A stretch of 64,000 bases of DNA, taken from contig NZ_VOLT01000012.1 of assembly GCF_007954275.1 (NCBI RefSeq), forward strand, positions 1-64,000. Reading direction: 5' to 3'. This document shows positions 6,385-21,247 of the stretch, piece after piece. Both the position numbers and the translations under genes were made by a program. The notes below the pieces were generated by a model. It ran no database searches, was not told the origin of the DNA, and saw only the letters and a program-made list of their open reading frames with translations. This stretch comes from Colwellia demingiae. GTDB taxonomy: Bacteria; Pseudomonadota; Gammaproteobacteria; Enterobacterales; Alteromonadaceae. Position 1 is the first letter of the stretch, and each line of letters begins with the position of its first letter.

Positions 6385-7725
6385 ATGACAACCATTTTAA
6401 GAATGCCCATTACGAATGTATTTGGACAAGGTGATTACAGCGCAACTTTGCACCTTGGTAGTGAAAAATCCCCTGTTAATCTTCTGCTCGATACCTGTAG
6501 TAGTACTCTATTGGTAAAAAGTACAACTTACCAAGCTACGCTGGATAAAAAGTTGACACCTAGTACTGCAGTTCAAGAAGTTAATTACGGTGTTGGCGGT
6601 TGGAATGGGCCAGTTATATTTACCAGTATTAATATTCATGAGCATTGCCATAAATCTGATCACCCACAAAGCATAGCGAAAAGCCCAAGCATGAATTTAA
6701 GTAATGCGCCCGTTGCGCTGGTACATTCTGTAAAACAAAGTAAAACATTTGGCGATGCCGACGGGATTTTAGGTTTGGCTTACCATCACCTAAATAAAAG
6801 CTTTGATTTTAGCGATTATTTTACTGAGCATAAAATTACCCCTGCGCTGAGTTACCCGTGGCCTTTTAGTGGTGAGGTAAGTGAAGACTTGGTTAGTTTT
6901 AAAAAACTGATGTGGAAATACCCTGAGCATGATGTAACGCCCTACTTCACCTTATTGGAAGAACAACAGCTGAGCGCTAATAAATTTGCTTTCTATAGTA
7001 AACGTTCTGCAATACATATTAATGAAAGCCACTCAAATAAGATTCACAAAACACCACTAGACGAATTATCCAAAGATCCACTAAACAAAGGTTTATTAAT
7101 ATTAGGGGGAGGTGAAGAACAAACCGACTTATACCAAGGTGAATTTCAAAGCATCAAGGTTGAGCACGATGTTTATTACAATGTAGATCTTAAATCGGTT
7201 CAAGTAGACACGAGCAAACCAATAATCGCAGCACCGCTTGAGCAAAAGCACCTTAAAGGTTATTTCACCAATGCCATTATCGATACCGGTGCCGGTGGCA
7301 TAGTACTAACCGCCGATATTTATAAACAAGTAATTAACGACCTTATTACTTATAACGCCAACTTTGCCCAATGTTTAGCGCCGTTTAAAGAGATGAGCGC
7401 GCAACTTGTCGGTATAGATATAGAAGAGTTAGAACTAACGCAATGGCCAACATTGTATTTCAATTTTGTTAGCGAGCCTGCAACCGATAAAACGGCAGAA
7501 CACGTAGTACAACTTGCTTGTACACCAGAAACGTATTGGCAAATTAACACGCCTAATTATAACAAAGCGTGTTTTCGTTTACTGAGCCAATTACCCCAAT
7601 GGCCAAATCAAAGCATTATTGGCTTACCACTGATAAATAACTATTACGTGGTGTTTGATCGATCTAAAGATAAAACAGGCGTAGTGAAATTTGCACAGCA
7701 AAGAATAGATCGTGCTAGTGCATAG
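6385..7725 (+). CDS. Pepsin-like aspartic protease (family A1, shewasin type)
   Basis: A bacterial homologue of eukaryotic pepsins, 446 aa. The first catalytic aspartate is D36 in LLLDTCSSTLL (Cys where most pepsins have Gly). The flap tyrosine is Y68 in VNYGVGGWNG. ADGILGLAYHHL matches the pepsin DGILGLAY block, the second aspartate is D300 in IIDTGAGG, and the C-terminus SIIGLPLINNYYVVFDR is also pepsin-like. There is no signal peptide or propeptide, so it probably works in the cytoplasm, as known for some Shewanella pepsin homologues. Its stop overlaps the start of the first GNAT gene, tying it to the peptide cluster. A role in removing leader or tail of the borosin precursors is my inference. 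No strong ribosome-binding site is seen. Confidence 0.85.
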   Translation: MTTILRMPITNVFGQGDYSATLHLGSEKSPVNLLLDTCSSTLLVKSTTYQATLDKKLTPSTAVQEVNYGVGGWNGPVIFTSINIHEHCHKSDHPQSIAKSPSMNLSNAPVALVHSVKQSKTFGDADGILGLAYHHLNKSFDFSDYFTEHKITPALSYPWPFSGEVSEDLVSFKKLMWKYPEHDVTPYFTLLEEQQLSANKFAFYSKRSAIHINESHSNKIHKTPLDELSKDPLNKGLLILGGGEEQTDLYQGEFQSIKVEHDVYYNVDLKSVQVDTSKPIIAAPLEQKHLKGYFTNAIIDTGAGGIVLTADIYKQVINDLITYNANFAQCLAPFKEMSAQLVGIDIEELELTQWPTLYFNFVSEPATDKTAEHVVQLACTPETYWQINTPNYNKACFRLLSQLPQWPNQSIIGLPLINNYYVVFDRSKDKTGVVKFAQQRIDRASA

Positions 7726-8287
7726 CTTTACCACTGATCGCTTGTTAATAAGACCATTACTTGCTGAAGATAAAATATTTTTTTGTCAGCAATATACTAA
7801 TGAAATAGTGATGAAAAAAACTGGTGGCGCCATTAACCAAGTAGAGGCAAAAAAACAATTCCAACGCTCACTCAAGGCAAATGAACGCGCAAGCCGTGGT
7901 GGAAAAAAGTCAGTACTTACTTGGGCAATAGTGTGTCTAAGTACAGGAAAAATTATTGGCAGCCAAACATTTTCATTTTTGACTCTGCCTCATAACATTG
8001 AGGTGATAAAGCAAACTGAGCTTAATGGAAGAGTTCAAGCAGAGATGGGTATCGTGCTATCTATAGAATCACAAGGAAAAGGGTTAGGCAAAGAAGCGCT
8101 CACTGCTTTGGTGGAGTATGGTTTTAACTCATTATCACTTGATAGGATAAATGCGTTTTATGTAAAAAGTAACCTTGCCTCTGCCCGTGTTTTTGCTCGC
8201 TTAAATTTTATTTGTGACTCTGCGTCACAATTAAAAAATACTGAAAACACCGAGCATAGCTACTTACAGATAGAAAGTTATGGATAA
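7718..8287 (+). CDS. GNAT N-acetyltransferase, RimJ/RimL type (copy 1)
   Basis: 189 aa. I place the start at GTG 7718, because the product then begins VHSFTTDRLLIRPL and lines up with copies 2 (MHSFTTERLLIRPL) and 3 (MHAFTTERLLIRPL). This overlaps the protease stop by 8 bp, which suggests translational coupling. The acetyl-CoA loop is canonical (ESQGKGLGKEAL), unlike the two other copies. RimJ/RimL-type enzymes acetylate protein N-termini or small amines. Inside a RiPP cluster it might acetylate the peptide, but nothing in the sequence proves the substrate. Confidence 0.85.
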   Translation: MHSFTTDRLLIRPLLAEDKIFFCQQYTNEIVMKKTGGAINQVEAKKQFQRSLKANERASRGGKKSVLTWAIVCLSTGKIIGSQTFSFLTLPHNIEVIKQTELNGRVQAEMGIVLSIESQGKGLGKEALTALVEYGFNSLSLDRINAFYVKSNLASARVFARLNFICDSASQLKNTENTEHSYLQIESYG

Positions 8288-8403
8288 GCACGTAAATTCA
8301 CTGCAAAGGACAACTAATAATCATTGCCTAGCTTACTAACTCTCTGATAACTTAGTTACTGCGATTAAATGTACTATTAATAAGGATGATAATGGACACG
8401 CTT

Positions 8404-8679
8404 ATGAGTAAAGTAATACAAGTATTAGAAAAATTGGCAAGAGATGCTTCACTATTAAGTGAGGAAAACAGAACAACTATGCTAATTGATGCTGATATCA
8501 CTGATAGCCAACGACAAGCCATTGTTGCTAAGGATATCAATAAATTGGCTGGCAGCCTTGGTGACTTAGCTAAAATTAAGTATGTCATTCCGCTTATTCC
8601 AGCAGAAGATGACGAGCAGGAAGAAGAACAAAGTGATGAGAAAAGTAATGCACATTCTCAGCTAACTTCTAACTTCTAA
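8404..8679 (+). CDS. Putative split-borosin precursor peptide 1
   Basis: 91 aa from ATG 8404, chosen because MSKVIQVLEK is shared with the two paralogues. ATG 8392 (6 nt after AAGG) and ATG 8386 are alternatives. Residues 1-50 form a helical leader with ITDSQRQAIVAKDINKLAG, resembling the borosin-binding domain of the Shewanella precursor SonA. Then follows a short hydrophobic core KIKYVIPLIP (57-66) and a very acidic tail (AEDDEQEEEQSDE). The 3' end runs into a heptanucleotide repeat that includes the stop codon. Precursor function is inferred from the SonA resemblance and the methyltransferase in the cluster. Confidence 0.8.
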   Translation: MSKVIQVLEKLARDASLLSEENRTTMLIDADITDSQRQAIVAKDINKLAGSLGDLAKIKYVIPLIPAEDDEQEEEQSDEKSNAHSQLTSNF

Positions 8680-8714
8680 CTTCTAACTTCTAACTTCTAA
8701 CTTCTAACTTCTAA
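8662..8714. repeat. Heptanucleotide tandem repeat (CTAACTT), 7.6 copies
   Basis: Seven perfect CTAACTT units and a partial eighth. The repeat begins inside the last codons of precursor 1, contains its TAA stop, and fills the gap up to 8 bp before the GGDEF gene start. The unit is not a multiple of three, so slippage would change both the peptide's C-terminal residues and the spacing to the next start codon. In every frame a TAA appears within 21 bp. Confidence 0.95.
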
Positions 8715-8721
8715 TAAAGTT

Positions 8722-10578
8722 ATGATATTTAACATAACAAAAAAAAACCTTTACTATGTACTAGGTTATACGGTGCTGCTCTTTTGTCTATTACTTGTCA
8801 TCAGTGAAAATGTACAAGCAGTTGAAGTAAAAAGACAAGAACAAAAAAAATTAATCAAAAATACACTTTCAGATAAAAAGATTTCAGAAAAACTTCAGCT
8901 TGCTGAGGACAATAAACGTTCCCACTATATTATTTTTAAAAAATTAATCTCCGAAATAAATCAACAACCATATATCAAAAAAACACAACAACACTCATTA
9001 GATTTTTTAAATGCTTATGATTTATTGTATAGAGGTCAATATGATAAAGCGAAACCTATGTTTGAAGCGTTATTACAACGTAATATCAGTAACTTAATGC
9101 AATTTAAAACTAATTATCTTCTTATATATATCGCTACAGTAACGCAGAACTGGCGAGATGGATTACAGTACATAGCAAGCAACACTAAATTGTTAACAAG
9201 GTTCCCCAACGGAGAACCCTATCAAAATAATATGTTGGCAACCATTATATTTTACAATCAAATAGGGCAATATCAATTAGCGCTCAGTTATATAGATAAC
9301 CTTTCTAAACAGGAGTTATCAGCTAAAAATAGCTGCGCGCTTTTGCAACTTTCCTTAGAAGCACAATTTAATCTGAAAAAGTTGAAGCATACCGATAGTA
9401 TTTTTCCACAGGCTATTAATAAATGTATAAATGCTGATTTTATAATTGCTGCAAACTTCATACGTTTTTATAAAGCGAAACTCTACTTACAAGTTGAGAG
9501 TCCTGAAAAAGCGGTGACTTTACTTTCATCCCTTAAAGAAGAGGTAATAAATACTCATTACCCTATGTTAATAGCAGATATGAGCAATATATTTGCCGAA
9601 GCCTATTGGCAGATGAGTGACATTTATAATGCAAGAAAATACGCAACTGAATCACTAGAAAGCAACCCAAACAATGCTAACCTTATACAAGCTGTAGATA
9701 GTTATTTTTTACTGTACCAGATTGCAAAAAAACAGCATGACTTAGCGCTTGCTCTTGAGTATTTTGAGAAATATTCAGATATTGAAAAGTCTAGCTTAGA
9801 AGGAGAAGAAACTAAAAAATTAGCTCTTCAATTAGCCAAGCATAAAAACGTTGAGCAAGAGAGCCAGATAAAGTTACTTAACGAAAAAAATAACGTTTTA
9901 GCTGCTAAGCAATCTCTAGCCGAAACAGAAGTTGCTAACAGAAAGCTAATTATTGTGGCGCTAACACTTATTATTATAGCCTTAGCCACACTAGCTACAC
10001 GTTTATGCCGTGATCATAAACGTGTGAAAGAGTTAGCAGAGTTCGACCCGTTAACCGGCATATTTAATCGAGGTCATTTTACCCAAGTGGCTCATAGTGC
10101 ATTAAAATATTGTCAAAATTCACAGCAAGATTTATGCGTGATTATGTTTGATTTAGACTACTTCAAAAGGGTTAATGACTCTTTTGGTCATGCTTGTGGC
10201 GATTGGGCACTAAAAGAAACAACAAAAGCGTGTGAAAGTATTGGCCGAAAAAATGATATTTTTGCTCGAATAGGGGGAGAAGAGTTTTGTATCGTATTAC
10301 CTAGCTGTAATATTGAAACCGCGATGTCACGCGCAGAAGATTACCGTGCAATCATTGAAGCTATTGTAACAAAAGCATCTGGTTATGATTTTACTCTCAC
10401 CGCGAGTTTTGGTGTTACCGATGTAAAACGCTCAGGTTATGAATTAGATCAACTCCTAGCTGATGCTGACTTTGCAGCTTATGCATCAAAAGATGACGGC
10501 CGCAATAGAGTTTCTATGTTCCAAGCTGCTTCCGATAATGAGACCGAAAAATTAGATGCTTCATGGGAATATAATTAA
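8722..10578 (+). CDS. Membrane TPR-GGDEF diguanylate cyclase (copy 1)
   Basis: 618 aa. An N-terminal membrane/signal segment (about 10-28) is followed by a periplasmic helical-repeat region with TPR-like hairpins (AYDLLYRGQYDKAKPMF, YNQIGQYQLALSYI). A coiled coil leads to a second membrane segment (about 409-428) and a cytoplasmic GGDEF domain. The active site is GGEEF (518-522), with the inhibitory I-site RKND (509-512) at the canonical distance, so it should make c-di-GMP from GTP with product inhibition. It starts 43 bp after precursor 1. The periplasmic TPR part is a plausible peptide sensor (inference). The ribosome-binding site is weak. Confidence 0.9.
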   Translation: MIFNITKKNLYYVLGYTVLLFCLLLVISENVQAVEVKRQEQKKLIKNTLSDKKISEKLQLAEDNKRSHYIIFKKLISEINQQPYIKKTQQHSLDFLNAYDLLYRGQYDKAKPMFEALLQRNISNLMQFKTNYLLIYIATVTQNWRDGLQYIASNTKLLTRFPNGEPYQNNMLATIIFYNQIGQYQLALSYIDNLSKQELSAKNSCALLQLSLEAQFNLKKLKHTDSIFPQAINKCINADFIIAANFIRFYKAKLYLQVESPEKAVTLLSSLKEEVINTHYPMLIADMSNIFAEAYWQMSDIYNARKYATESLESNPNNANLIQAVDSYFLLYQIAKKQHDLALALEYFEKYSDIEKSSLEGEETKKLALQLAKHKNVEQESQIKLLNEKNNVLAAKQSLAETEVANRKLIIVALTLIIIALATLATRLCRDHKRVKELAEFDPLTGIFNRGHFTQVAHSALKYCQNSQQDLCVIMFDLDYFKRVNDSFGHACGDWALKETTKACESIGRKNDIFARIGGEEFCIVLPSCNIETAMSRAEDYRAIIEAIVTKASGYDFTLTASFGVTDVKRSGYELDQLLADADFAAYASKDDGRNRVSMFQAASDNETEKLDASWEYN

Positions 10579-10591
10579 ATGGTCAATTTTC

Positions 10592-11161
10592 ATGCATAGT
10601 TTTACCACCGAACGATTGTTAATAAGACCTTTAGCTGTACAAGACAAAGCTCTTTATCTGAGCCTTTATTGTAATGCCAAGATTATGAAAAATATTGGCG
10701 AGCCTTTATCACTTGAGTCAGCCCAAAAAGCTTTTCATAACACTTTAAAAGCAATGGATAAAACCATGCCAAAAGTACTAACTTGGGCAATTGTAAATAA
10801 AATTACAAATGAAACAATAGGTATACAAGCATTGAGCGAATCATCACAAGATGATTTTAAAATTGCTGAAATAGGGATTATGCTTTCGACAAAAGCTAAT
10901 GGAAAACAATTTCCTGAGGAGGCTATGGGCGCTCTCATGGAATACGGTTTTCATCATCTATTACTTATGCGTATTAATGCTGTTTATGCCTGTAAAAACC
11001 TTGCGACTAAACGTTTTGTTAATAAGCTTGGCTTTCGTTTTAACAACCAACCGCAAGGTGACGAAGATAACAATGAATACCAATACTTCGATCAGAGGCA
11101 ATGGAACAAATCATTGATCACCAAAATACTTCCTAATAAATATGATAACCCATTGCCCTAA
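10592..11161 (+). CDS. GNAT N-acetyltransferase, RimJ/RimL type (copy 2)
   Basis: 189 aa from ATG 10592, which gives MHSFTTERLLIRPL and matches the other copies. A longer frame from 10556 would overlap the cyclase gene. The fold is GNAT, but the acetyl-CoA loop reads KANGKQFPEEAM: the last glycine of the usual Q/R-x-x-G-x-G/A is replaced by proline, as in copy 3. Activity is therefore uncertain; it may have changed substrate or act as a binding protein. It lies 13 bp downstream of the first GGDEF gene and 82 bp before precursor 2. Confidence 0.85.
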   Translation: MHSFTTERLLIRPLAVQDKALYLSLYCNAKIMKNIGEPLSLESAQKAFHNTLKAMDKTMPKVLTWAIVNKITNETIGIQALSESSQDDFKIAEIGIMLSTKANGKQFPEEAMGALMEYGFHHLLLMRINAVYACKNLATKRFVNKLGFRFNNQPQGDEDNNEYQYFDQRQWNKSLITKILPNKYDNPLP

Positions 11162-11243
11162 TAGGTTATTTCCTGCTAGTTTATAGGCGCAATAATGGAT
11201 CGCACTATAAATAAAATTAAAAACAATAAAACGGAGTAAATCT

Positions 11244-11498
11244 ATGAGTAAAGTAATTCAGGTTCTAGAGAAAATAGGTCAGATGGCTGATGCCGACATC
11301 GCACAGATACTATTAGATAATAAGCTAAATGCGGCGCTATCTGAAGCAGTTATAAATAAAAATGTAGTATCCCTTGAACGTCAATTAGATATATGTCCTG
11401 AAATTGTTTGTTTTTTATTGCCAGCTAAAGATGAAGATGAAGAAGAAAGTAATACAGAAGAAGAGCAAAGCGAGGCTCAATCAGTAGTTAACGAGTAA
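11244..11498 (+). CDS. Putative split-borosin precursor peptide 2
   Basis: 84 aa, preceded by a good ribosome-binding site (CGGAG, about 8 nt before ATG). MSKVIQVLEK is identical to precursor 1. The leader is shorter by a few residues. The predicted core is the hydrophobic stretch PEIVCFLLPA (52-61), including a cysteine, followed by an acidic tail (KDEDEEESNTEEEQSE). The helix LNAALSEAVINKNVVSLE corresponds to the borosin-binding helix of the other two. It is followed after 7 bp by the second TPR-GGDEF gene. Confidence 0.8.
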   Translation: MSKVIQVLEKIGQMADADIAQILLDNKLNAALSEAVINKNVVSLERQLDICPEIVCFLLPAKDEDEEESNTEEEQSEAQSVVNE

Positions 11499-11505
11499 CT
11501 GCCCA

Positions 11506-13320
11506 TTGTTTAATGTTCATAATATAAAGGATAAATTAAAAAATATTAAAATTTTTCACTTTAGTATTTTTATTTTGTTCTTTTTGTTGGCACAAGATGC
11601 CATAGCTACTTCTCCCAATAATATAGATAAATTATTGGGAGAAGCGAATGAAAGCAGATCAAGCGATCCTGTCAAATATTCATTTTTATTAGAAGAACTT
11701 AACTCTCAGCACAAAAGCATGTCGCTGCAGCAAAATTATTATTTTGACTATTTGACAGCTTATCAACTTATTTATAATGGTAAACCCAAAAAAGCAACTA
11801 GCAAGCTTATAACCTTATTATCCTCAGAAGCTAGTGCATTAACAAAATTAAAAGCACGACTCACCCTGGTTAACATTTTTGCGATTGAACAAAACTGGAG
11901 TGATGGTTTATCTCACTTATCAACAGCATTAAAGCAGTTACCCAAAATAAAGAAAAATATGGATATTAAAGAAAAAGTATTGGGCATGGCTGCCATTTTT
12001 TATAACCAATTGGGACAATATAGCCTAGGACTTAAATATGCAGAAAGACTTATAATTACTTCTACAAAAAACAGAGTTCTTTGCGTAGCTTCAATGAATA
12101 TTATTGAATCCAAGCTATATTTAAAAAAATTAAATACTAGTAATACCGAAATACAAGACGCTATAACGTTATGTAAAAATGAACCCATTGCAGTTAATTT
12201 CATTCGCACATATAAAGCAAAATATGATCTTGAAAATAATGATGCATCTAAAGTTATAGTATCGCTTCCCTCTTATTTAACGCAGGTTGAAGCAACTAAG
12301 TATCCGAGACTTATAGTGGAAATTTATGCCGCTCTTGCTCAAGCTTATTTAATGCAAGGAAACCTAAAAGAGGCATCAGTTCTAGCCTTAAAAACAATAA
12401 CAATCGGAGAAAACATTCAAACAACACAAGCAGTTGTTTCTGCCTATAAAACCTTATATCAATTAGAGCTTATTAAAAAAAACCATCAAAAAGCACTTGA
12501 TTATCATCAAAAATATTCACAATTAGATAAAGCATACCTTGATGAAACAACAGTAAAATATCTTGCCTTTCAATTAGCTGAACACCAAACCTTTGAGCAA
12601 GAAAGCCAAATAGAGTTACTCAATGAAAAGAACAATTCATTAGCTACCGAACAAGCTTTAGCCAAAACACAAGTAGCTAATAGACAACTCGTAATATTAC
12701 TTCTAATTGTTATTATTTTAGTACTCGCCTTTATTGGCACCCGCTTTTACCGTGCTCATAAACGCGTCAAAGAATTAGCCGAGTATGACCCGTTAACCGG
12801 AATTTATAATCGTGGTCATTTTACCCACGTGACCAATAGCGCCTTAAAATACTGTAAGAATGCGCAACAAGACATGTCTGTGATTATGTTCGATTTAGAT
12901 CACTTCAAAAAGGTTAACGACTCTTTTGGTCATGCCTGCGGTGACTGGGCATTAAAAGAGACCATAAAAGTTTGTCAACGTATTGGCCGTAAAAATGATA
13001 TTTTTGCCCGCTTAGGTGGTGAAGAATTTTGTCTAGTATTAACAAGTTGTACTATTGATATGGCAATGCTACGCGCCGAAGCTTGTCGTGCGGCAATTGA
13101 AGAGATAATTACCGAAGAGTCTGGACATGATTTTTCAATCACTGCTAGTTTTGGCGTAACCGATATCAAACGATCAGGTTTTAATTTAGATAAACTATTA
13201 GCAGATGCTGATATGGCCGCTTATGCATCAAAAAATACCGGTCGTAACAGAGTTACTATGTTCGAAGTTCCTCAAACAGATCAAGCAAAAAAATTGGATA
13301 GCTCATGGAACTATAACTAA
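11506..13320 (+). CDS. Membrane TPR-GGDEF diguanylate cyclase (copy 2)
   Basis: 604 aa with the same plan as copy 1: N-terminal membrane segment (about 18-32), periplasmic TPR-like repeats (AYQLIYNGKPKKATSKL, YNQLGQYSLGLKYAERL), coiled coil, second membrane segment, GGDEF domain. GGEEF is at 504-508 with RKND upstream, so both active and inhibitory sites are present. No ATG precedes the membrane segment in this frame. TTG 11506, 7 bp after the precursor 2 stop, is the only conventional start, suggesting weak or coupled translation. The periplasmic region has diverged far more from copies 1 and 3 than the GGDEF domain. Confidence 0.9.
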   Translation: MFNVHNIKDKLKNIKIFHFSIFILFFLLAQDAIATSPNNIDKLLGEANESRSSDPVKYSFLLEELNSQHKSMSLQQNYYFDYLTAYQLIYNGKPKKATSKLITLLSSEASALTKLKARLTLVNIFAIEQNWSDGLSHLSTALKQLPKIKKNMDIKEKVLGMAAIFYNQLGQYSLGLKYAERLIITSTKNRVLCVASMNIIESKLYLKKLNTSNTEIQDAITLCKNEPIAVNFIRTYKAKYDLENNDASKVIVSLPSYLTQVEATKYPRLIVEIYAALAQAYLMQGNLKEASVLALKTITIGENIQTTQAVVSAYKTLYQLELIKKNHQKALDYHQKYSQLDKAYLDETTVKYLAFQLAEHQTFEQESQIELLNEKNNSLATEQALAKTQVANRQLVILLLIVIILVLAFIGTRFYRAHKRVKELAEYDPLTGIYNRGHFTHVTNSALKYCKNAQQDMSVIMFDLDHFKKVNDSFGHACGDWALKETIKVCQRIGRKNDIFARLGGEEFCLVLTSCTIDMAMLRAEACRAAIEEIITEESGHDFSITASFGVTDIKRSGFNLDKLLADADMAAYASKNTGRNRVTMFEVPQTDQAKKLDSSWNYN

Positions 13321-13374
13321 TCTTTTGTTTCTAATGTATTTCCCATAAGATGTATATTCAATTGATGAGTTTTT

Positions 13375-13959
13375 ATGCACGCCTTTACCACTGAACGGTT
13401 ATTAATCAGGCCGTTAATATCGGAAGATGAATACTTTTATTGTTATCAGTATACTGACAAAAAAATGATGCGCATCGTTGGCGAGCCACTAACCCAAGAA
13501 CAAGCCAGCGTTGCATTTCATCGTGCATTAAAGGCCAATAACCTAGAACAAGATACGGTTCGTACTTGGGCAATTGTCGATAAAAAAGCTAACGATATCA
13601 TAGGTACTCAAGCATTATCTTGGTTAGCAGCAAGACAAGCGACCAAACCAAGCATCTCCCCAATTGAACAAGTAGAAATTGGCATTATGTTAGCCACTAA
13701 AGCTAACGGAAAATTATTACCTGAAGAAGCAGTATCCGCCATAATGGAATACGGATTTAAACAGCTTAATATTGGTAGAATTAATGCTTTTTATGCTAAC
13801 AAAAATAGAGCTACACAACGAATATTGAAAAAAATTGGTTATATATTCGAACCCAGTTTGCAAGATAACACTACCAACGATGGTTACCAATACTTTGACC
13901 AAAACCAGTGGAGTAGTGTAATAATCACTCAACTTTTTTCCGCCGCGACTTGTAAATAA
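13375..13959 (+). CDS. GNAT N-acetyltransferase, RimJ/RimL type (copy 3)
   Basis: 194 aa beginning MHAFTTERLLIRPL. Homologous along its length to copies 1 and 2. The acetyl-CoA loop is KANGKLLPEEAV, with the same Gly-to-Pro change as copy 2, so copies 2 and 3 probably descend from one duplication. Lies 54 bp after the second GGDEF gene. The next gene, the methyltransferase, follows after 188 bp, so a separate promoter there is possible. Confidence 0.85.
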   Translation: MHAFTTERLLIRPLISEDEYFYCYQYTDKKMMRIVGEPLTQEQASVAFHRALKANNLEQDTVRTWAIVDKKANDIIGTQALSWLAARQATKPSISPIEQVEIGIMLATKANGKLLPEEAVSAIMEYGFKQLNIGRINAFYANKNRATQRILKKIGYIFEPSLQDNTTNDGYQYFDQNQWSSVIITQLFSAATCK

Positions 13960-14147
13960 TTATCCATTATTGCTGATTAGCTATTATCAGTAAAAATAAG
14001 ATTATAAACCAATATACTCGTTGCCCCCTGTGCTCGCTTCTGCTAATTTAGTTACAAAATTATAACAACTTTACCGCTTTCCTTTTTTAGTAAGCATCAC
14101 ACAGTAGTTATCGTCAGATTATCAATAAAAATAAAAAGGAATTTATC

Positions 14148-14969
14148 ATGTCAGGCAGTTTAGTATGTGTTGGCACTGGCATGACGTTAGGTGCGCATAT
14201 TAGCCCTATTTCTCAGAGTCATATTGAACAAGCTGATATTGTATTTTCACTGATGGCCAATGGCTTTGCCCAAAAATGGCTTGAAGGAATGAATGCTGAT
14301 GTTCGCTGCTTGCAAGGCTTCTATCAAGAAGGTAAAAATCGCAACATTACCTACAACGAAATGGTTGAGGCTATTTTAAGCGAAGTATGTAATGGTAAAA
14401 AAGTGGTTGCCGCTTTTTATGGCCACCCTGGTGTATTTGCCTGTGTTGCTCATCGAGCGATTAAAAAAGCCAAATTAGACGACTTCCCCGCTTCAATGGA
14501 GCCTGGCATATCTGCTGAAGATTGCCTTTATGCCGACTTAGGTATAGATCCTGGTAAAACAGGCTGCATGCATTATGAAACCAGCCAGTTTATGTTTTAT
14601 AAGCGTAATATTGATACTTCTGCCCATTTAATATTATGGCAAGTTGCACTTGCTGGCGATAAGTCTTTAGGGAAGTTCTCTACAGGGAAAGCTTATCGTC
14701 AAGTATTAGTCGATTTACTACTTGAACATTATCCCCGTGACCATGAAGTAATACTATATCAAGCAAAAGGCATTGCCATTGAGCCGATGCGTGAAGACAA
14801 AATACTGTTAACTGAACTTGTTGATGCTGATTTGCTAATGCAAACCACTTTGGTGATCCCACCATGTAGTGTAATGCAAGCAAATGAAGAATTGTTAGCT
14901 AAGCTCGCAAAAATTGACAAACAAGAAGAACGTAATAAAAACCGCCCTGCATTAACCTTGGTGTTATAA
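14148..14969 (+). CDS. Split-borosin peptide alpha-N-methyltransferase (SonM-like)
   Basis: 273 aa with a strong ribosome-binding site (AAGGAA). It belongs to the tetrapyrrole-methylase (class III SAM methyltransferase) fold: GSLVCVGTGMTLG at the N-terminus, YGHPGVFACV (91-100), MEPGISAEDCLYADLGIDPG (117-136), SQFMF (146-150). From memory these blocks match SonM of Shewanella oneidensis. Y59, R65, Y69 and Y91 have exactly the spacing (6, 4, 22) of the catalytic Tyr/Arg set reported for the fungal borosin enzyme OphMA. It lacks a fused core, so it should methylate backbone amides of a separate precursor; one lies 53 bp downstream. Automated annotation is likely to call it a tetrapyrrole methylase. 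It is the only methyltransferase for three precursors. Confidence 0.93.
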   Translation: MSGSLVCVGTGMTLGAHISPISQSHIEQADIVFSLMANGFAQKWLEGMNADVRCLQGFYQEGKNRNITYNEMVEAILSEVCNGKKVVAAFYGHPGVFACVAHRAIKKAKLDDFPASMEPGISAEDCLYADLGIDPGKTGCMHYETSQFMFYKRNIDTSAHLILWQVALAGDKSLGKFSTGKAYRQVLVDLLLEHYPRDHEVILYQAKGIAIEPMREDKILLTELVDADLLMQTTLVIPPCSVMQANEELLAKLAKIDKQEERNKNRPALTLVL

Positions 14970-15022
14970 GTAAAAAAATAGCTACGGTAAATAAATTTAT
15001 CATTAAAAATGGAATAAGTTCT

Positions 15023-15277
15023 ATGAGTAAAGTAATTGAAGTATTAATGCAAATGGCGAGTAATGCCGAGATGAGCAATACCAAGTCACTCGCTGAGATG
15101 CTAAGCAACGCTAATCTCACTAAGGCTCAAGAACTCGCTATACAAACTAAAGACATGGATGCTTTAAAAGTAGCTACTTATAACTTACCTGAAATCAGAT
15201 GTTACCCAATATTACTTCCTGACGATAAGAGTGAAGAAGTAAGTACTTTAATTAATAGAACCGTAGCTAACTTTTAA
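15023..15277 (+). CDS. Putative split-borosin precursor peptide 3
   Basis: 84 aa, ATG preceded by TGGAA. MSKVIEVLMQ matches the other precursors. LTKAQELAIQTKDMDALK (32-49) is the closest of the three to the SonA binding helix. Predicted core: PEIRCYPILLP (56-66), then a shorter, less acidic tail ending VANF; precursor 1 also ends in NF. It directly follows the methyltransferase, as sonA follows sonM, so this is the likely ancestral enzyme/substrate pair. Confidence 0.88.
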   Translation: MSKVIEVLMQMASNAEMSNTKSLAEMLSNANLTKAQELAIQTKDMDALKVATYNLPEIRCYPILLPDDKSEEVSTLINRTVANF

Positions 15278-15295
15278 ACTAACCTAAAATAAAAC

Positions 15296-17188
15296 ATGAA
15301 TAAAAACTGCATTTTAAAGGAACTAAAACATAATCTTCATCTTAAGGTGCAGTCATTATTTTTGTGTGTTTTTATTAGTGTTCCCGTAGGACTAATAACA
15401 ACCTCCCCCCAAGTAATTGCTGAATCCTTTCAATATGAGGACGATCAAACAGACATACTGAAGTTAAAGTTTAGTTCAGAGTATATATCTGAAAAATTAC
15501 TACTAGCTGACAGAAATAGACGCGAAAACCCAGTATTATATAAACAAATCTTAGCTGAGCTGGCACTATTAGAAAAATCATTTACTACTGAGCAACAATC
15601 TTATTATCAGTTTCTTCAAGGTTACTTGGCCATTTACCATGGAGATTATGAGCAAGCCGATAAACTCTTGTCTGAGATTCTAAACTCTAGTGCTGATAAG
15701 CTTATTAAGTTTAGAGCTAATTACACATTAATTAATGTTGCCGCTGCCAAAAAAGACTGGTCTGACGGTTTAAGACATATTGCCGTAAATAAAGAAATGC
15801 TGCCATCTATTACGGATAAAGAGCATTACCAACTGAGTATTCTAACCGCTATTATTTTTTATAATCAACTTCAACAGTTTGATTTAGTGCTTAAGAATAT
15901 AGCGCAGGTAAAGCGACATAATCTCCCTCAACAACATAACTGTTTTCTCGAACAATTTACCCTTGAAGCAAAACTTAACTTACAACAAATAAAGCCTGAC
16001 AACGTAAGTATTGATACCGGTTTAGATATTTGTAAACAAGCTGGAAACAAGATCAGTACCAATATAATTCGTGTGTATCGAGCAAAGTTATATTTAAAAG
16101 CGCAGCAACCAGAGAAGGCACTTGCTGAATTATTACCTTATTACGATGAAATCAACACAACGCTATTTCCCTTGTTGATTACTGGCATGAATAACACCCT
16201 AGCGAAGAGCAATTATCAACTAGGTAATTTAAATATCGCTGAAAAATATGCTTTAGCTGCACTCAGAGTTAATAAAAACAATACAATTCTTAAGCAAAGT
16301 GCTGATAGCTATAAATTACTTTACCAAATAAACAAATCACAAAAAAATATTGACCTAGCACTGAGTTACCATGAGAAATATAACGCCTTAGAAGTGGCAC
16401 ATTTAGAGGATGAAAAGTCTAAGCATGTTGCATTTCAATTGGCTGAATTAAAAACCTTTGAACATGAAAACCAAATAACATTATTGAATGAACAAAATAC
16501 TTTTTTAGCTGCAGAGCAAGCGTTATCAAATATTAAAGTTGCTAATATTCAGCTGATTATAACAGTGATGACGTTGATCATTATTATGTTAACTATTTGG
16601 GGTGCACGCTTATGGAGGTCTCATAAACGCGTAAAAGCATTATCTGAATATGATGAATTAACAGGTATATATAACCGCAGACACTTTGCTCAAATTGCCG
16701 TAAGTACGCTGAAGTATTGTCAAAGCGCTGACCAAGATTTAAGTCTGATTATGTTTGATTTAGATAACTTCAAAAAGATTAACGATAATTTTGGTCATAT
16801 CTGTGGTGACTGGGCATTAAAAGAAACCATTAGAGTATGTGAAAGCATTGGCCGTAAAAATGATATATTTTCCCGTTTAGGTGGTGAAGAGTTTTGTATT
16901 TTATTACCAAGTTGTAATATTGAAGCGGCAGTTTTGCGGGCTGAAGCTTGTCGTGCGGCTATTGAAAATACGATTACTGAAGAGTCTGGTAATGACTTTA
17001 GTATTACTGCTAGTTTTGGCGTAACTGATGTAACACGTTCTGGCTTTAATTTAGAGAAGTTATTAACTGATGCTGACTTTGCTGCTTATGAATCTAAACA
17101 TGCAGGTCGAAATAGGGTTACTGTTTTTGAACCTCAAAAAGATGAAACAGGAAAGTCGTTAGGTAACTCATGGAGTGTTGCCCCTTAA
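15296..17188 (+). CDS. Membrane TPR-GGDEF diguanylate cyclase (copy 3)
   Basis: 630 aa, 18 bp after precursor 3. It has a signal or membrane segment at about 17-43, TPR-like repeats (GYLAIYHGDYEQADKLL, YNQLQQFDLVLKNI), coiled coil, a second membrane segment and a GGDEF domain with GGEEF at 529-533 and the RKND inhibitory site. The domain start reads YDELTGIYNRRHF, slightly different from copies 1 and 2. It is the last gene of the cluster before the opposite-strand prmA. Location should be inner membrane with the sensor part outside. Confidence 0.9.
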   Translation: MNKNCILKELKHNLHLKVQSLFLCVFISVPVGLITTSPQVIAESFQYEDDQTDILKLKFSSEYISEKLLLADRNRRENPVLYKQILAELALLEKSFTTEQQSYYQFLQGYLAIYHGDYEQADKLLSEILNSSADKLIKFRANYTLINVAAAKKDWSDGLRHIAVNKEMLPSITDKEHYQLSILTAIIFYNQLQQFDLVLKNIAQVKRHNLPQQHNCFLEQFTLEAKLNLQQIKPDNVSIDTGLDICKQAGNKISTNIIRVYRAKLYLKAQQPEKALAELLPYYDEINTTLFPLLITGMNNTLAKSNYQLGNLNIAEKYALAALRVNKNNTILKQSADSYKLLYQINKSQKNIDLALSYHEKYNALEVAHLEDEKSKHVAFQLAELKTFEHENQITLLNEQNTFLAAEQALSNIKVANIQLIITVMTLIIIMLTIWGARLWRSHKRVKALSEYDELTGIYNRRHFAQIAVSTLKYCQSADQDLSLIMFDLDNFKKINDNFGHICGDWALKETIRVCESIGRKNDIFSRLGGEEFCILLPSCNIEAAVLRAEACRAAIENTITEESGNDFSITASFGVTDVTRSGFNLEKLLTDADFAAYESKHAGRNRVTVFEPQKDETGKSLGNSWSVAP

Positions 17189-19182: not shown

Positions 19183-20148
19183 ATGAAGTATTTTCCCGTT
19201 TTTCTTGATGGCAGTAAAATTAATGCCATGGTGGTTGGTGGTGGTGATGTTGCCGCCCGTAAGATCGAATTACTGTTAAAGACCACAACAAACATTACCG
19301 TAATGGCGGAAAACGTTACGGATGGTGTTGAGCGCTTAATTAACGAAAATCAATTAAGCTGGTTAAAACATAACTATCAAGCGGGCTTGTTAACTAAAAT
19401 TACCTTAGTGATTGCTGCCACAGATGATACTGCAGTTAATGAGCAGGTTTATCATGAAGCCGTAGAGTTTAATATTCTTGCTAATGTGGTTGATCAACCT
19501 GCCCTTTGTACTTATATCACGCCAGCGATTATTGATCGATCACCGATGATTATTGCGCTTTCAAGCTCAGGCAGTGCGCCGATTCTAATTCGTATGTTAC
19601 GAGAGCAAATTGAGAAAATATTACCGCAAGGTTACGGGCGCTTAGCTGATTTTTCATTAAAGTTTCGAGATCATGTAAAAGCACGTATTAAAGGTATACG
19701 TAATCGCCGAACCTTCTGGGAAAACACCTTACGTGGTTCAATAGGGCAAGCATTACTCGATGGTAAGCATCAAGAGGCTGAGCAATTATTAATAGTGAGC
19801 TTGAAAGAAAAAATTGCGCCTCCTCAAGGTGAAATTATTTTTATTCAAACACTTGAAGGTAATCCTGATAATTTAACATTGAAAGCCCACCGCGCTTTAC
19901 AGTTTGCCGACGCTGTTTTTTATGATGGTGAGGTCAATATTGAGTTGATTGAATATGTTCGCCGCGATGCAGAAAAATATCCTCAGAGTGTCAGTTCAAC
20001 CCTTATGCTTAATTACCAACATGCGTTAGAGCTTGCCCAAGAAGGGCAACAGGTTATTTACTTACTCAGCGGTAATGAAGAATTACCCGGTAATGCAGCC
20101 TTAATATCTAGTGGTATTAGCACTACAATCATCACCAATGGTAGCTAG
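19183..20148 (+). CDS. Siroheme synthase-like protein with a degenerate C-terminal domain
   Basis: 321 aa. Residues 1-210 are the CysG N-terminal half (precorrin-2 dehydrogenase/sirohydrochlorin ferrochelatase): MVVGGGDVAARKIELLL is the NAD site and IIALSSSGSAPILIRMLREQIE the conserved second part. Full CysG continues with an approximately 240-aa uroporphyrinogen methyltransferase. Here only about 105 aa follow, and the SAM-binding GAGPGDPxLLT motif has become IQTLEGNPDNLTL, so methyltransferase activity is unlikely. It probably makes siroheme from precorrin-2 supplied by a separate enzyme. Confidence 0.85.
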   Translation: MKYFPVFLDGSKINAMVVGGGDVAARKIELLLKTTTNITVMAENVTDGVERLINENQLSWLKHNYQAGLLTKITLVIAATDDTAVNEQVYHEAVEFNILANVVDQPALCTYITPAIIDRSPMIIALSSSGSAPILIRMLREQIEKILPQGYGRLADFSLKFRDHVKARIKGIRNRRTFWENTLRGSIGQALLDGKHQEAEQLLIVSLKEKIAPPQGEIIFIQTLEGNPDNLTLKAHRALQFADAVFYDGEVNIELIEYVRRDAEKYPQSVSSTLMLNYQHALELAQEGQQVIYLLSGNEELPGNAALISSGISTTIITNGS

Positions 20149-20291: not shown

Positions 20292-20416
20292 GTTTAATCT
20301 GTGAACACGCTACAAGGATGTATCAATTAGTGATCTACTTAATGGCTTAAGTTGTTTTTTCACTCATTACTAATTTTAAGGTGTATTTTAATTTTATACT
20401 GACAAGGACTAAACAA

Positions 20417-21247
20417 ATGAAAACACTTAAAAAACTTATAACAGTATTAACACTTTCAACACTGGGCTTTGCTTTTACCGCTACTGCAATGCCTATAAAC
20501 CTATGGGATTGGCAGGTTGATACAGCTTTCACCGGCTATACACCTGCAGCTCCTAATACAACGGTTACTCCAAGCAATGATAATGTCTATTGGGCTAGTC
20601 AAGGACCAATAGCCGCTACTAAGCTTGCTTGGGGAAGCCCGTTTGCTCCTGGAATTATTCAAAGTTCTCTCGAAAGAACAGTTGGAAACAATGGCTTTGG
20701 TAGTGACATCGGAACTGGTTTAGCACTTGGTGCTTTAGCGCAAACCACAACGCTAGTACATAATAATTTTATAATTACAGGCAATACGCTACAGGGTGCG
20801 ACGTTAAGTACGAGACTATTACTTGATCCTAATCCCACAGATGGTATTTATGATGTAGCGCCTACAGCGCTCAATTTTAATATTGATTTCTTAGAAACGA
20901 GTAACGATGACTCTTGTGAAGTAGTCTCCCCTGTGCCTTGTAATGATATCTTTGTTATTTCGCCAGTAGCAAATTTAAATCAAGGGTTTATGCTTAATGG
21001 CTATGATTATAACATAGAAATTTTAGTGGATGGTTTAGGTGTACTCACAGATGCCGCTTGTGCTGCTGCAGGCGCAGCAAGTGGTTGTTCAGGGTTCACA
21101 ACGATAGAAGGCGAAGAAAACGATTTTGATGTGAATATAAGAATAACATCTTTAGGAATAACAGAGGTCCCGGAACCATCAACAATTTTACTATTAAGCT
21201 TAGCAATGTTTGGCATAGTAGCGAGTTCGCGTAGTAAACATAGTTAA
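20417..21247 (+). CDS. PEP-CTERM sorting-domain protein (THxN-like family)
   Basis: 276 aa from ATG 20417, which has AAGGA 9 nt upstream; a longer frame has no such site. A signal peptide (1-26, ending TATA-MP) is followed by a secreted region with NLWDWQVDTAF, WGSP and LVHNNF, reminiscent of THxN-family PEP-CTERM proteins. The sorting tail is VPEPSTILLLSLAMFGIVA plus basic residues (RSK). An exosortase, not in this window, should cut at the PEP motif. Surface or matrix protein; ligand unknown. The candidate sigma-54 promoter upstream fits known regulation of such genes. Confidence 0.85.
   Translation: MKTLKKLITVLTLSTLGFAFTATAMPINLWDWQVDTAFTGYTPAAPNTTVTPSNDNVYWASQGPIAATKLAWGSPFAPGIIQSSLERTVGNNGFGSDIGTGLALGALAQTTTLVHNNFIITGNTLQGATLSTRLLLDPNPTDGIYDVAPTALNFNIDFLETSNDDSCEVVSPVPCNDIFVISPVANLNQGFMLNGYDYNIEILVDGLGVLTDAACAAAGAASGCSGFTTIEGEENDFDVNIRITSLGITEVPEPSTILLLSLAMFGIVASSRSKHS

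Follow-up and report, generated by a model that had tools for sequence, protein, structure and literature searches.

Gene content of the locus

Eleven genes lie between positions 6385 and 17188 of the window, the window being the whole stretch of 64,000 nucleotides of a Colwellia-type genome that was analyzed. The gene set proposed by the first-pass annotation (a protease, three GNATs, a methyltransferase, three precursors, and three TPR-GGDEF proteins) was recovered in full, as follows.

6385..7725, + strand, pepsin-like aspartic protease (A1 family, shewasin type; PF00026, 5.7e-15)
7712..8287, + strand, GNAT 1 (RimJ/L-like acetyltransferase; PF13302)
8386..8679, + strand, precursor peptide 1, with a BBD-like leader (start could be 8386, 8392, or 8404)
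8569..8604, + strand, predicted core of precursor 1, AKIKYVIPLIPA, with an acidic tail after it (from SonA alignment)
8662..8714, + strand, CTAACTT repeat, 7.6 copies, running from the end of precursor 1 into the gap that precedes cyclase 1
8722..10578, + strand, TPR sensor-GGDEF protein 1 (N-terminal hydrophobic segment, TPR, TM, GGEEF; GGDEF 5.9e-39 in Pfam)
10556..11161, + strand, GNAT 2 (PF13302)
11244..11498, + strand, precursor peptide 2
11400..11426, + strand, predicted core of precursor 2, EIVCFLLPA (aligned to SonA 58-67)
11506..13320, + strand, TPR sensor-GGDEF protein 2, TTG start (GGDEF 8.2e-42 in NCBIfam)
13375..13959, + strand, GNAT 3 (PF13302)
14148..14969, + strand, SonM-type alpha-N-methyltransferase (PF00590; Y59, R65, Y69, and Y91 conserved)
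15023..15277, + strand, precursor peptide 3
15191..15220, + strand, predicted core of precursor 3, EIRCYPILLP
15296..17188, + strand, TPR sensor-GGDEF protein 3 (GGDEF 1.2e-39 in Pfam)

The Pfam scan covered 10 of the 11 genes, and the second cyclase (11506 to 13320) was scanned in NCBIfam and PADLOC only. The coordinates place each precursor gene directly before a TPR-GGDEF gene, with gaps of 42, 7, and 18 bp in modules 1, 2, and 3, and all three cyclases carry GGEEF preceded by RKND, which bears out the arrangement and the intact GGEEF and RxxD sites described at first pass. The GG(D/E)EF active site of diguanylate cyclases is thus present in all three window proteins. A defense or phage origin of the locus was rejected, as PHROGs gave zero matches for three proteins and PADLOC, run on four proteins, gave only a weak protease match (1.1e-4). 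A promoter scan retrieved 28 sites versus 42.9 in shuffled sequences, and terminators (4 versus 7.4) were also below the shuffled level.

The methyltransferase scores 274 bits against solved SonM and about 141 bits against OphMA. Residues Y59, R65, Y69, and Y91, on which its earlier description as SonM-like had drawn, do not vary across the 16 aligned homologues and correspond to Y58, R67, Y71, and Y93 of SonM in the portion of PMC8429565 consulted. As in type IV split borosins, a SonM/OphMA-type methyltransferase is encoded apart from its precursor, and the precursor is short, with an N-terminal borosin-binding domain and a hydrophobic core. The window locus fits this class, and backbone methylation of its cores would follow the example of SonM-SonA.

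PDB searches with single precursor sequences gave, in turn, no match, no SonA, and SonA at an E value of 0.99 beneath unrelated matches. A profile built from 32 precursors, all outside the SonA subtype, did match seven SonA chains (E values from 5.2e-5 to 1.1e-4), the best match (5.2e-5) spanning leader positions 1 to 53. The leader model is helical and folded, with four helices versus the five described for the SonA leader in the available part of PMC8429565; SonA chains make up 15 of its 24 PDB fold matches, none of them significant (E value of 2.3 or more). In SonA, L63 and I65 are methylated (PMC11285071), within the stretch to which the core of precursor 2 was aligned. The predicted core motif contains a cysteine in 91 of 124 distinct precursors (E value below 1e-8), and two of the three window precursors end in a long acidic tail.

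In the relatives listed, the first catalytic motif is DTGSS or DSGSS; the window protease has DTCSS there, and its second motif, DTGAG, is intact. No hydrophobic segment was found in this protein, which looks cytosolic. Of 24 genomes of this family, 23 have a shewasin-type orphan pepsin gene next to SonM, as do 27 of 28 in Shewanella, and a protease gene is linked in many SonM loci. The Shewanella sediminis shewasin homologue Ssed_3567 has the coordinates of the protease of genome G592, as far as the parts of PMC4814920 and PMC2761423 at hand indicate.

Pairing of precursor and TPR genes across SonM loci

The neighborhoods of 125 distinct SonM genes were surveyed, comprising the window, all 32 loci of one search, and stretches picked for breadth, with eight picked for the protease; many further SonM matches, and short loci from the same searches, lie outside the 125. 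The precursor and TPR HMMs were trained iteratively on part of the surveyed loci, and their E values therefore lack independence. Five of the fetched kinases served to build the kinase model, and the neighborhood count over the 125 SonM genes was made at an E value of 1e-2. In this nonrandom sample, a TPR-family gene lies within 4 kb of 122 of the 125 SonM genes, the output domain of the partner being GGDEF in 102, a histidine kinase in 15, and none in 5; the neighborhood search suggested at first pass, for SonM homologues beside TPR-GGDEF genes, has thus been run with a positive outcome. Among 102 TPR-family proteins of the first set (not deduplicated), 92 have GGEEF, 3 have another motif, and 7 have none, 5 of these being kinases. 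In the 122 distinct loci with a precursor gene, a TPR gene, or both, a TPR-family gene follows 124 of the 141 precursor genes within 150 bp. The pairing of peptide and TPR genes is far beyond chance.

The constant partner in SonM loci is the TPR sensor and not the cyclase, since GGDEF can be replaced by a histidine kinase or be absent. Peptide and TPR genes are equal in number in 78 of the 122 distinct loci. The other 44 comprise 15 without a detected precursor and a remainder with surplus peptides or surplus receptors, and 25 TPR genes (not deduplicated) have no precursor detected in front of them at an E value of 1e-3. The pairing, for which the first-pass annotation named no parallel among described RiPP systems, is not unique to the window. 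Genome G545 has a close relative of the founding SonM-SonA cluster, with 99% identity of its SonM to the PDB sequence; there a TPR-GGDEF gene abuts two precursor genes, one of which encodes a SonA-like peptide of 71 amino acids. The legend of Figure 1 in a 2024 paper (PMC11395268) names a GGDEF domain among borosin architectures. What stands of the earlier reading is a multiprecursor, type IV-like split borosin locus with TPR-GGDEF proteins. The literature searched gave no earlier description of the TPR partner, its likeness to Rap/NprR, the pairwise codivergence, or the pepsin linkage, and an earlier account may exist.

In favor of mere coinheritance of neighbors with no functional link is the single site, between dusB and prmA, that the locus occupies in Colwellia-type genomes (27 fetched loci with both flanks, not deduplicated). 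Such coinheritance is a very improbable explanation of the pair, which is kept across several families and varied surroundings, before or behind SonM, and with swapped outputs.

TPR-only proteins, which carry signal-like N termini, stand beside 5 of the 125 SonM genes, and loci L232, L236, and L269 have two in tandem. They would suit a TPR domain that helps, in the periplasm, to mature, transport, or store the peptide, with the GGDEF or kinase domain reporting the traffic. Because the partner carries an enzymatic signaling output in 117 of 122 cases, such a role appears unlikely.

Within the genus, SonM was matched in 24 of 39 genomes. A precursor occurs in all 24 of these and in 1 of the 15 without a SonM match, and a strong TPR match (E value below 1e-40) occurs in all 24 and in 3 of the 15; two more TPR matches are weak (5e-7 and 3e-8). 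Genome G571, with no SonM match, has a precursor, and its contig ends inside the TPR-GGDEF gene that follows. Genomes G558 and G564 have neither SonM nor precursor and yet keep TPR-GGDEF at the dusB-prmA site, intact in G558 and broken in G564. G557, one of the 24, has SonM in pieces, with precursor and TPR-GGDEF intact. The first-pass annotation had held that peptide-cyclase loci without the methyltransferase would refute its reading. Such loci exist in three genomes (L159 to L161), with a GNAT-precursor-sensor-sensor layout and no adjacent methyltransferase, but all three genomes have SonM elsewhere.

Sensor genes are common in biosynthetic loci, and the TPR-GGDEF or TPR-kinase protein might accordingly be a pathway regulator that senses another cue, the borosin being an ordinary natural product tied in its production or use to c-di-GMP, say a metal ligand, an antibiotic, or a surface modifier. 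Output swapping is typical of regulators too, and the predicted core motif is conserved across paralogues. This reading is rather unlikely, given that one regulator would suffice, whereas the sensors adjoin the precursors and duplicate along with them, and that loci L159 to L161 lie away from SonM.

Topology, fold, and codivergence of the TPR sensor

Hydrophobic segments are predicted on both sides of the TPR part in the window proteins and, over the full set (not deduplicated), in 81 of 121; the TPR part contains exactly two cysteines in 113 of the 121 (likewise not deduplicated). The TPR domain is predicted to be periplasmic, which would make these proteins sensors and not plain c-di-GMP enzymes. 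In comparisons of the TPR model (pLDDT 84) with the PDB, chains of the Rap/NprR peptide receptors account for 12 of 45 matches at an E value of 0.001 or better. Rap-CSF ranks second (TM-scores of 0.58/0.65), and Rap-phi3T, RapF with an inhibitory peptide, and NprR-NprX are also present. LGN and APC/C chains are among the matches too, and for one APC/C chain the query TM-score is higher (0.62); TPR folds bind many proteins, a point against reading the fold as a receptor for the core. The peptide-binding TPR fold of the RRNPP family is found here as a fold class common to non-RRNPP TPR proteins, and neither a cytosolic receptor nor sequence membership of the family was found. Because of the flanking hydrophobic segments and PDB identities of 11 to 16%, the sensor may be said to work like an RRNPP receptor, not to be one.

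Codivergence was tested on the 80 of 86 pairs with GGDEF present and SonM in the locus. The partial rank correlation between core and TPR domain, given SonM and GGDEF, is 0.46 (95% interval, 0.32 to 0.58), and that between core and GGDEF, given SonM and TPR, is 0.11 (−0.01 to 0.24). When partners were shuffled within 14 multimodule loci, the observed precursor-TPR value was reached in 0 of 2,000 trials; the GGDEF domain passes this test too, less strongly (P = 0.0035). Precursors and TPR domains thus codiverge as pairs. In the Colwellia-like subset (63 of the 80 pairs), the TPR domain correlates at 0.38 with the core and at 0.33 with the leader (interval of the difference, −0.16 to 0.22); for the core, the interval of the difference between TPR and GGDEF, −0.02 to 0.58, barely takes in zero. 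Since core and leader track the TPR domain about equally there and the latter difference includes zero, duplication of the unit alone could explain the codivergence. A closer tracking of the TPR domain by the core than by the leader, true over the 80 pairs, fails in this subset and was not relied on.

The folded leader model and the long acidic tail of two window precursors would also suit a precursor that is itself a small sensor-binding regulatory protein, with methylation tuning the contact and no small peptide released. This is improbable. Over the 80 pairs, but not within the Colwellia-like subset, the leader covaries with the TPR domain less than the core does; many loci have a linked protease gene; and the title of a cited work names a bacterial borosin natural product.

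A candidate peptide-receptor system and its known relatives

The reading favored here, with close to an even chance of being right, is a peptide-receptor system based on a type IV-like split borosin, in which the adjacent TPR sensor has the core, once processed and methylated, as its ligand. By analogy with SonM-SonA, the methyltransferase would dock each precursor leader and methylate backbone amides in the hydrophobic core. The pepsin-like protease and the GNATs, to judge by linkage, may trim and probably N-acetylate the peptide, which would then reach the periplasm or the outside. There it would bind to the sensor encoded by the neighboring gene, at the periplasmic TPR domain, and switch the cytoplasmic GGDEF domain, or the histidine kinase in relatives, if signaling runs in this direction. 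Each precursor-sensor pair would therefore be a signal-receptor cassette, several cassettes sharing one methyltransferase. The computed support consists of the genes, their conserved adjacency and co-occurrence, output swapping, predicted topology and fold, and pairwise codivergence.

Several observations weigh against a ligand role. No exporter was recognized by eye, from first residues, among the gene clusters common to at least 6 of 119 neighborhoods, while the TPR domain is predicted to lie outside the cytoplasm; methylation, together with acetylation, would make the peptide stable and membrane permeable, which could explain this. The unequal precursor and TPR numbers in 44 of 122 loci and the 25 TPR genes without a precursor fit poorly, as do the TPR-GGDEF gene of G558 and the pair kept with a broken SonM in G557, and a conserved core motif with its frequent cysteine (91 of 124) suits private signals poorly.

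More tentatively, these peptides could represent a new class of bacterial peptide signals, backbone-N-methylated borosins that serve as pheromones or self-signals and are each read by a cognate membrane receptor with a Rap-like periplasmic TPR domain and an interchangeable output (cyclase, histidine kinase, or none), the long-orphan bacterial pepsins being the maturation proteases. No biological role of split borosins was found in the literature searched, as far as its accessible text goes, and nothing on borosins and quorum was on topic by title. If the TPR sensor is the receptor, the SonM clade becomes a signaling system and split borosins gain a job, Rap-like TPR peptide signaling extends to Gram-negative membrane receptors, and bacterial pepsins gain a pathway. 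If there is only coregulation, a sensor that may control borosin biology has still been named.

Among known systems, RcbA/RcbB of Vibrio vulnificus resembles the window sensors in that a TPR domain controls the attached GGDEF domain; there the partner is another TPR protein and the site the flagellar pole, and the abstract of PMC12282931 mentions no methyltransferase or precursor. Shewasins share with the window protease their family and the absence of a signal peptide, and the portions of PMC4814920 and PMC2761423 covered assign them no role, whereas the window gene is a member of a borosin locus. SonM-SonA of Shewanella oneidensis likewise combines a separate methyltransferase, with the same catalytic residues, and a short precursor with a helical binding-domain leader (PMC8429565, in part). 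Its relative in G545 has the same downstream TPR-GGDEF gene as the window. Unlike SonM-SonA, the window has its precursors and sensors in three modules, together with three GNATs and a pepsin-like protease. A PAEDDE-type acidic tail, absent from SonA, is present in most precursors of this family.

In the RRNPP family (Rap-Phr and NprR-NprX), a short peptide gene lies beside the receptor gene. The window sensors share this gene arrangement and, by structure comparison, the TPR fold. In contrast to RRNPP receptors, their TPR domain is predicted to be periplasmic within a membrane protein with a GGDEF or kinase output, and the peptide is a putative borosin, the likeness being one of fold and not of sequence kinship.

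The locus in the window and the predicted methylation of its peptides

Gene calls and domain searches bore out the coordinates, gene order and motifs that the first-pass annotation had given for 6385-17188. All genes of this region lie on the same strand, flanked by a dusB-fis block on one side and prmA on the other, in a window with a GC content of 0.37. The genome is of Colwellia type, its closest named relatives being Colwellia. It is confirmed as a well-delimited and new variant of the type IV-like split borosin locus. The features are as follows:

6385-17188, all on the same strand: pepsin-like protease (6385-7725), GNAT, precursor, TPR-GGDEF, GNAT, precursor, TPR-GGDEF, GNAT, methyltransferase, precursor, TPR-GGDEF
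8662-8714: perfect 7-bp tandem repeat (CTAACTT, 7.6 copies), extending over the final codons of precursor 1 and the intergenic gap that separates it from cyclase 1
19183-20148: product presumably a siroheme-synthase-like protein
20381-21247: secreted-looking product, with what we take to be a PEP-CTERM-like motif at the C terminus

Slippage at this repeat might adjust the distance between precursor 1 and cyclase 1. The 19183-20148 product gave a partial TP-methylase match (30 bits), and 18 of 119 SonM neighbourhoods contain a relative of it.

The window methyltransferase scores 274 bits against the solved SonM of Shewanella oneidensis and approximately 141 bits against OphMA. Its four active-site residues, which match positions mutated in SonM (PMC8429565), are invariant in 16 of 16 aligned homologues. 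In PDB searches, single precursor sequences did not convincingly match SonA, and a profile of 32 precursors, with SonA-subtype members excluded, matched it at 5.2e-5 across the leader. The structure model of precursor 2 presents four leader helices (pLDDT 74), and SonA chains account for 15 of its 24 PDB fold matches, none of them significant. Among 124 distinct aligned precursors, the hydrophobic segment preceding PAEDDE aligns with SonA residues 59-67. L59 of precursor 2 aligns with I65, which is methylated in SonA together with L63 (PMC11285071); the column of L63 is sparsely filled and missing from precursor 2. Backbone methylation of the window precursors is therefore predicted to be likely.

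Neighbours of SonM: the TPR sensor and the pepsin-like protease

In a non-random sample of loci, a TPR-family gene lies within 4 kb of 122 of 125 distinct SonM genes, with an output domain that is GGDEF in 102, histidine kinase in 15 and absent in 5. Pfam confirmed the kinase domain in 5 + 3 TPR-family proteins, the remaining kinase assignments coming from our own kinase model, and gave TPR repeats and nothing else in 5 TPR-only proteins. For some of the kinase type the match to the TPR model is moderate (as weak as ∼1e-17), and for these adjacency therefore weighs more than similarity. The TPR sensor is a constant partner in the type IV-like split borosin loci examined, and no description of it as such was found in the literature searched. 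The SonM genes without this neighbour are those of L117, L253 and L242. At the first two (L117, 600-2516, 638 amino acids; L253, 5840-9364, 1174 amino acids) the SonM-type domain lies within a longer protein, and these may be fused borosins. The precursor model found a peptide gene in the vicinity of 107 of the 125 SonM genes; of the ten misses in the first set, seven (six loci) show a 60- to 91-residue open reading frame in the gap, which had escaped the model.

The SonM of G545, a close relative of the founding SonM-SonA system, shares 99% identity with the PDB sequence, and two precursor genes of this genome, the second encoding a SonA-like peptide of 71 residues, are directly followed by a TPR-GGDEF gene. 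The coupling was therefore very probably part of the founding system, as judged from the sequence of this relative.

SonM matches, at the thresholds used, occur in 78 of 196 sampled genomes of the family, 95 of 394 of the order and 15 of 398 of the phylum. Within the genus (39 genomes), SonM was found in 24, a precursor in 25 and a TPR match at 1e-5 in 29 (27 strong, two weak), and all 24 SonM genomes contain both precursor and TPR partner. In G557 (L170), SonM is in several pieces beside an intact precursor and TPR-GGDEF, through either decay or sequencing error, and in G571 protease, precursor and TPR-GGDEF run as far as the contig end. G558 and G564 (L162/L163) have neither SonM nor precursor, and at the same dusB-prmA site they retain a TPR-GGDEF gene that is intact in the former and broken in the latter; these remnants read as decayed islands. 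G109, G155 and G174 carry a second, unlinked GNAT-precursor-TPR-GGDEF-TPR-GGDEF locus (L159, L160 and L161) with SonM not adjacent but present elsewhere in each genome, and thus the methyltransferase could act in trans on such SonM-less loci. Some Shewanella genomes have two SonM genes (L100/L101 in G356, L102/L103 in G514, L104 in G280); in G356 and G514, the two are split between a SonA-type locus and a Colwellia-type one, the latter containing protease and GNAT.

A bacterial pepsin match was obtained in 24 of 192 family genomes (in G111, a fragment), and SonM is present in all 24, at most 6.5 kb away in 23 and on a different contig in G040. Among Shewanella, 28 of 97 genomes contain the pepsin, with SonM within the fetched stretch in 27 of these and a contig end in the 28th (G650). 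Orphan bacterial pepsins are frequent members of type IV-like split borosin loci. The coordinates of the G592 pepsin gene are exactly those of Ssed_3567 of S. sediminis, as given by Rawlings and Bateman. Shewasin D is described as mainly cytosolic, its in vivo function being left open by the authors (PMC4814920). The searched portions of the shewasin papers (PMC4814920, PMC2761423) hold no mention of a borosin link, and the words pepsin, aspartic and aspartyl do not occur in a review of RiPP leader proteases. The first catalytic motif of the window protease is DTCSS, with cysteine for glycine; the listed relatives have DTGSS or DSGSS there.

Precursor-sensor pairing and sensor anatomy

Across 122 distinct loci, a TPR gene follows within 150 bp of 124 of 141 precursors. 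In 78 of these loci there are as many precursors as TPR genes, and in 44 the numbers differ, including 15 without a detected precursor, and one-to-one is therefore the commonest state, not the sole one. L119 (10036-11115) shows four tandem precursor genes ahead of a GNAT-precursor-TPR-GGDEF module.

When partners were permuted within multi-module loci (80 pairs), the precursor-TPR distance correlation of 0.716 exceeded all 2000 shuffles (mean, 0.680; maximum, 0.713), and the precursor-GGDEF correlation also passed, though more weakly (0.670, against a shuffle mean of 0.663 and maximum of 0.671; p 0.0035). Over the same number of pairs, the core correlates with the TPR part at 0.46 (0.32-0.58) given SonM and GGDEF, and with GGDEF at 0.11 (−0.01 to 0.24) given SonM and TPR; the leader correlates with the TPR part at 0.24 (0.10-0.41). 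Co-duplication of precursors and TPR sensors is a firm conclusion. Ligand-receptor covariation is no more than suggestive, since in the Colwellia-like subset core (0.38) and leader (0.33) do not differ in their correlation with the TPR part.

The three window sensors present an N-terminal hydrophobic segment, a TPR part, a second hydrophobic segment, basic residues and GGDEF. Two hydrophobic segments exceed the hydropathy threshold in 81 of 121 TPR-family proteins, and the N-terminal one does so in six of seven TPR-only relatives inspected. In 113 of the 121, the TPR part contains exactly two cysteines, as would be required for a periplasmic disulfide. Compared with the PDB, the first TPR domain as modelled by AlphaFold (pLDDT 84) has Rap-CSF as its second match; 45 matches reach E 0.001 or better, of which 12 are Rap and NprR chains and most of the others generic TPR proteins (LGN, APC/C).

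A putative peptide-receptor cassette system

The reading we favour, at slightly under an even chance, is that of a putative peptide-receptor cassette system in which several cassettes would share one methyltransferase. The precursor peptide would be trimmed and capped in the cytosol, and the mature peptide would arrive in the periplasm, bind the TPR domain of the sensor encoded next to it and thereby switch the output domain. Its weak points are a predicted core that is conserved and an exporter that was not recognised, by eye, among the genes common to at least six of 119 neighbourhoods. PMC8429565 describes backbone methylation as promoting membrane permeability, which could make an exporter unnecessary; that the methylated peptide crosses the membrane in this way is speculation.

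Signalling is the most interesting reading still standing and is directly testable. GGDEF is already listed among borosin architectures in the legend to Figure 1 of a research paper from 2024 (PMC11395268); beyond this, the literature searched gave no description of the TPR sensor as constant partner, nor of a borosin link for the orphan pepsins, which are frequent members of these loci.
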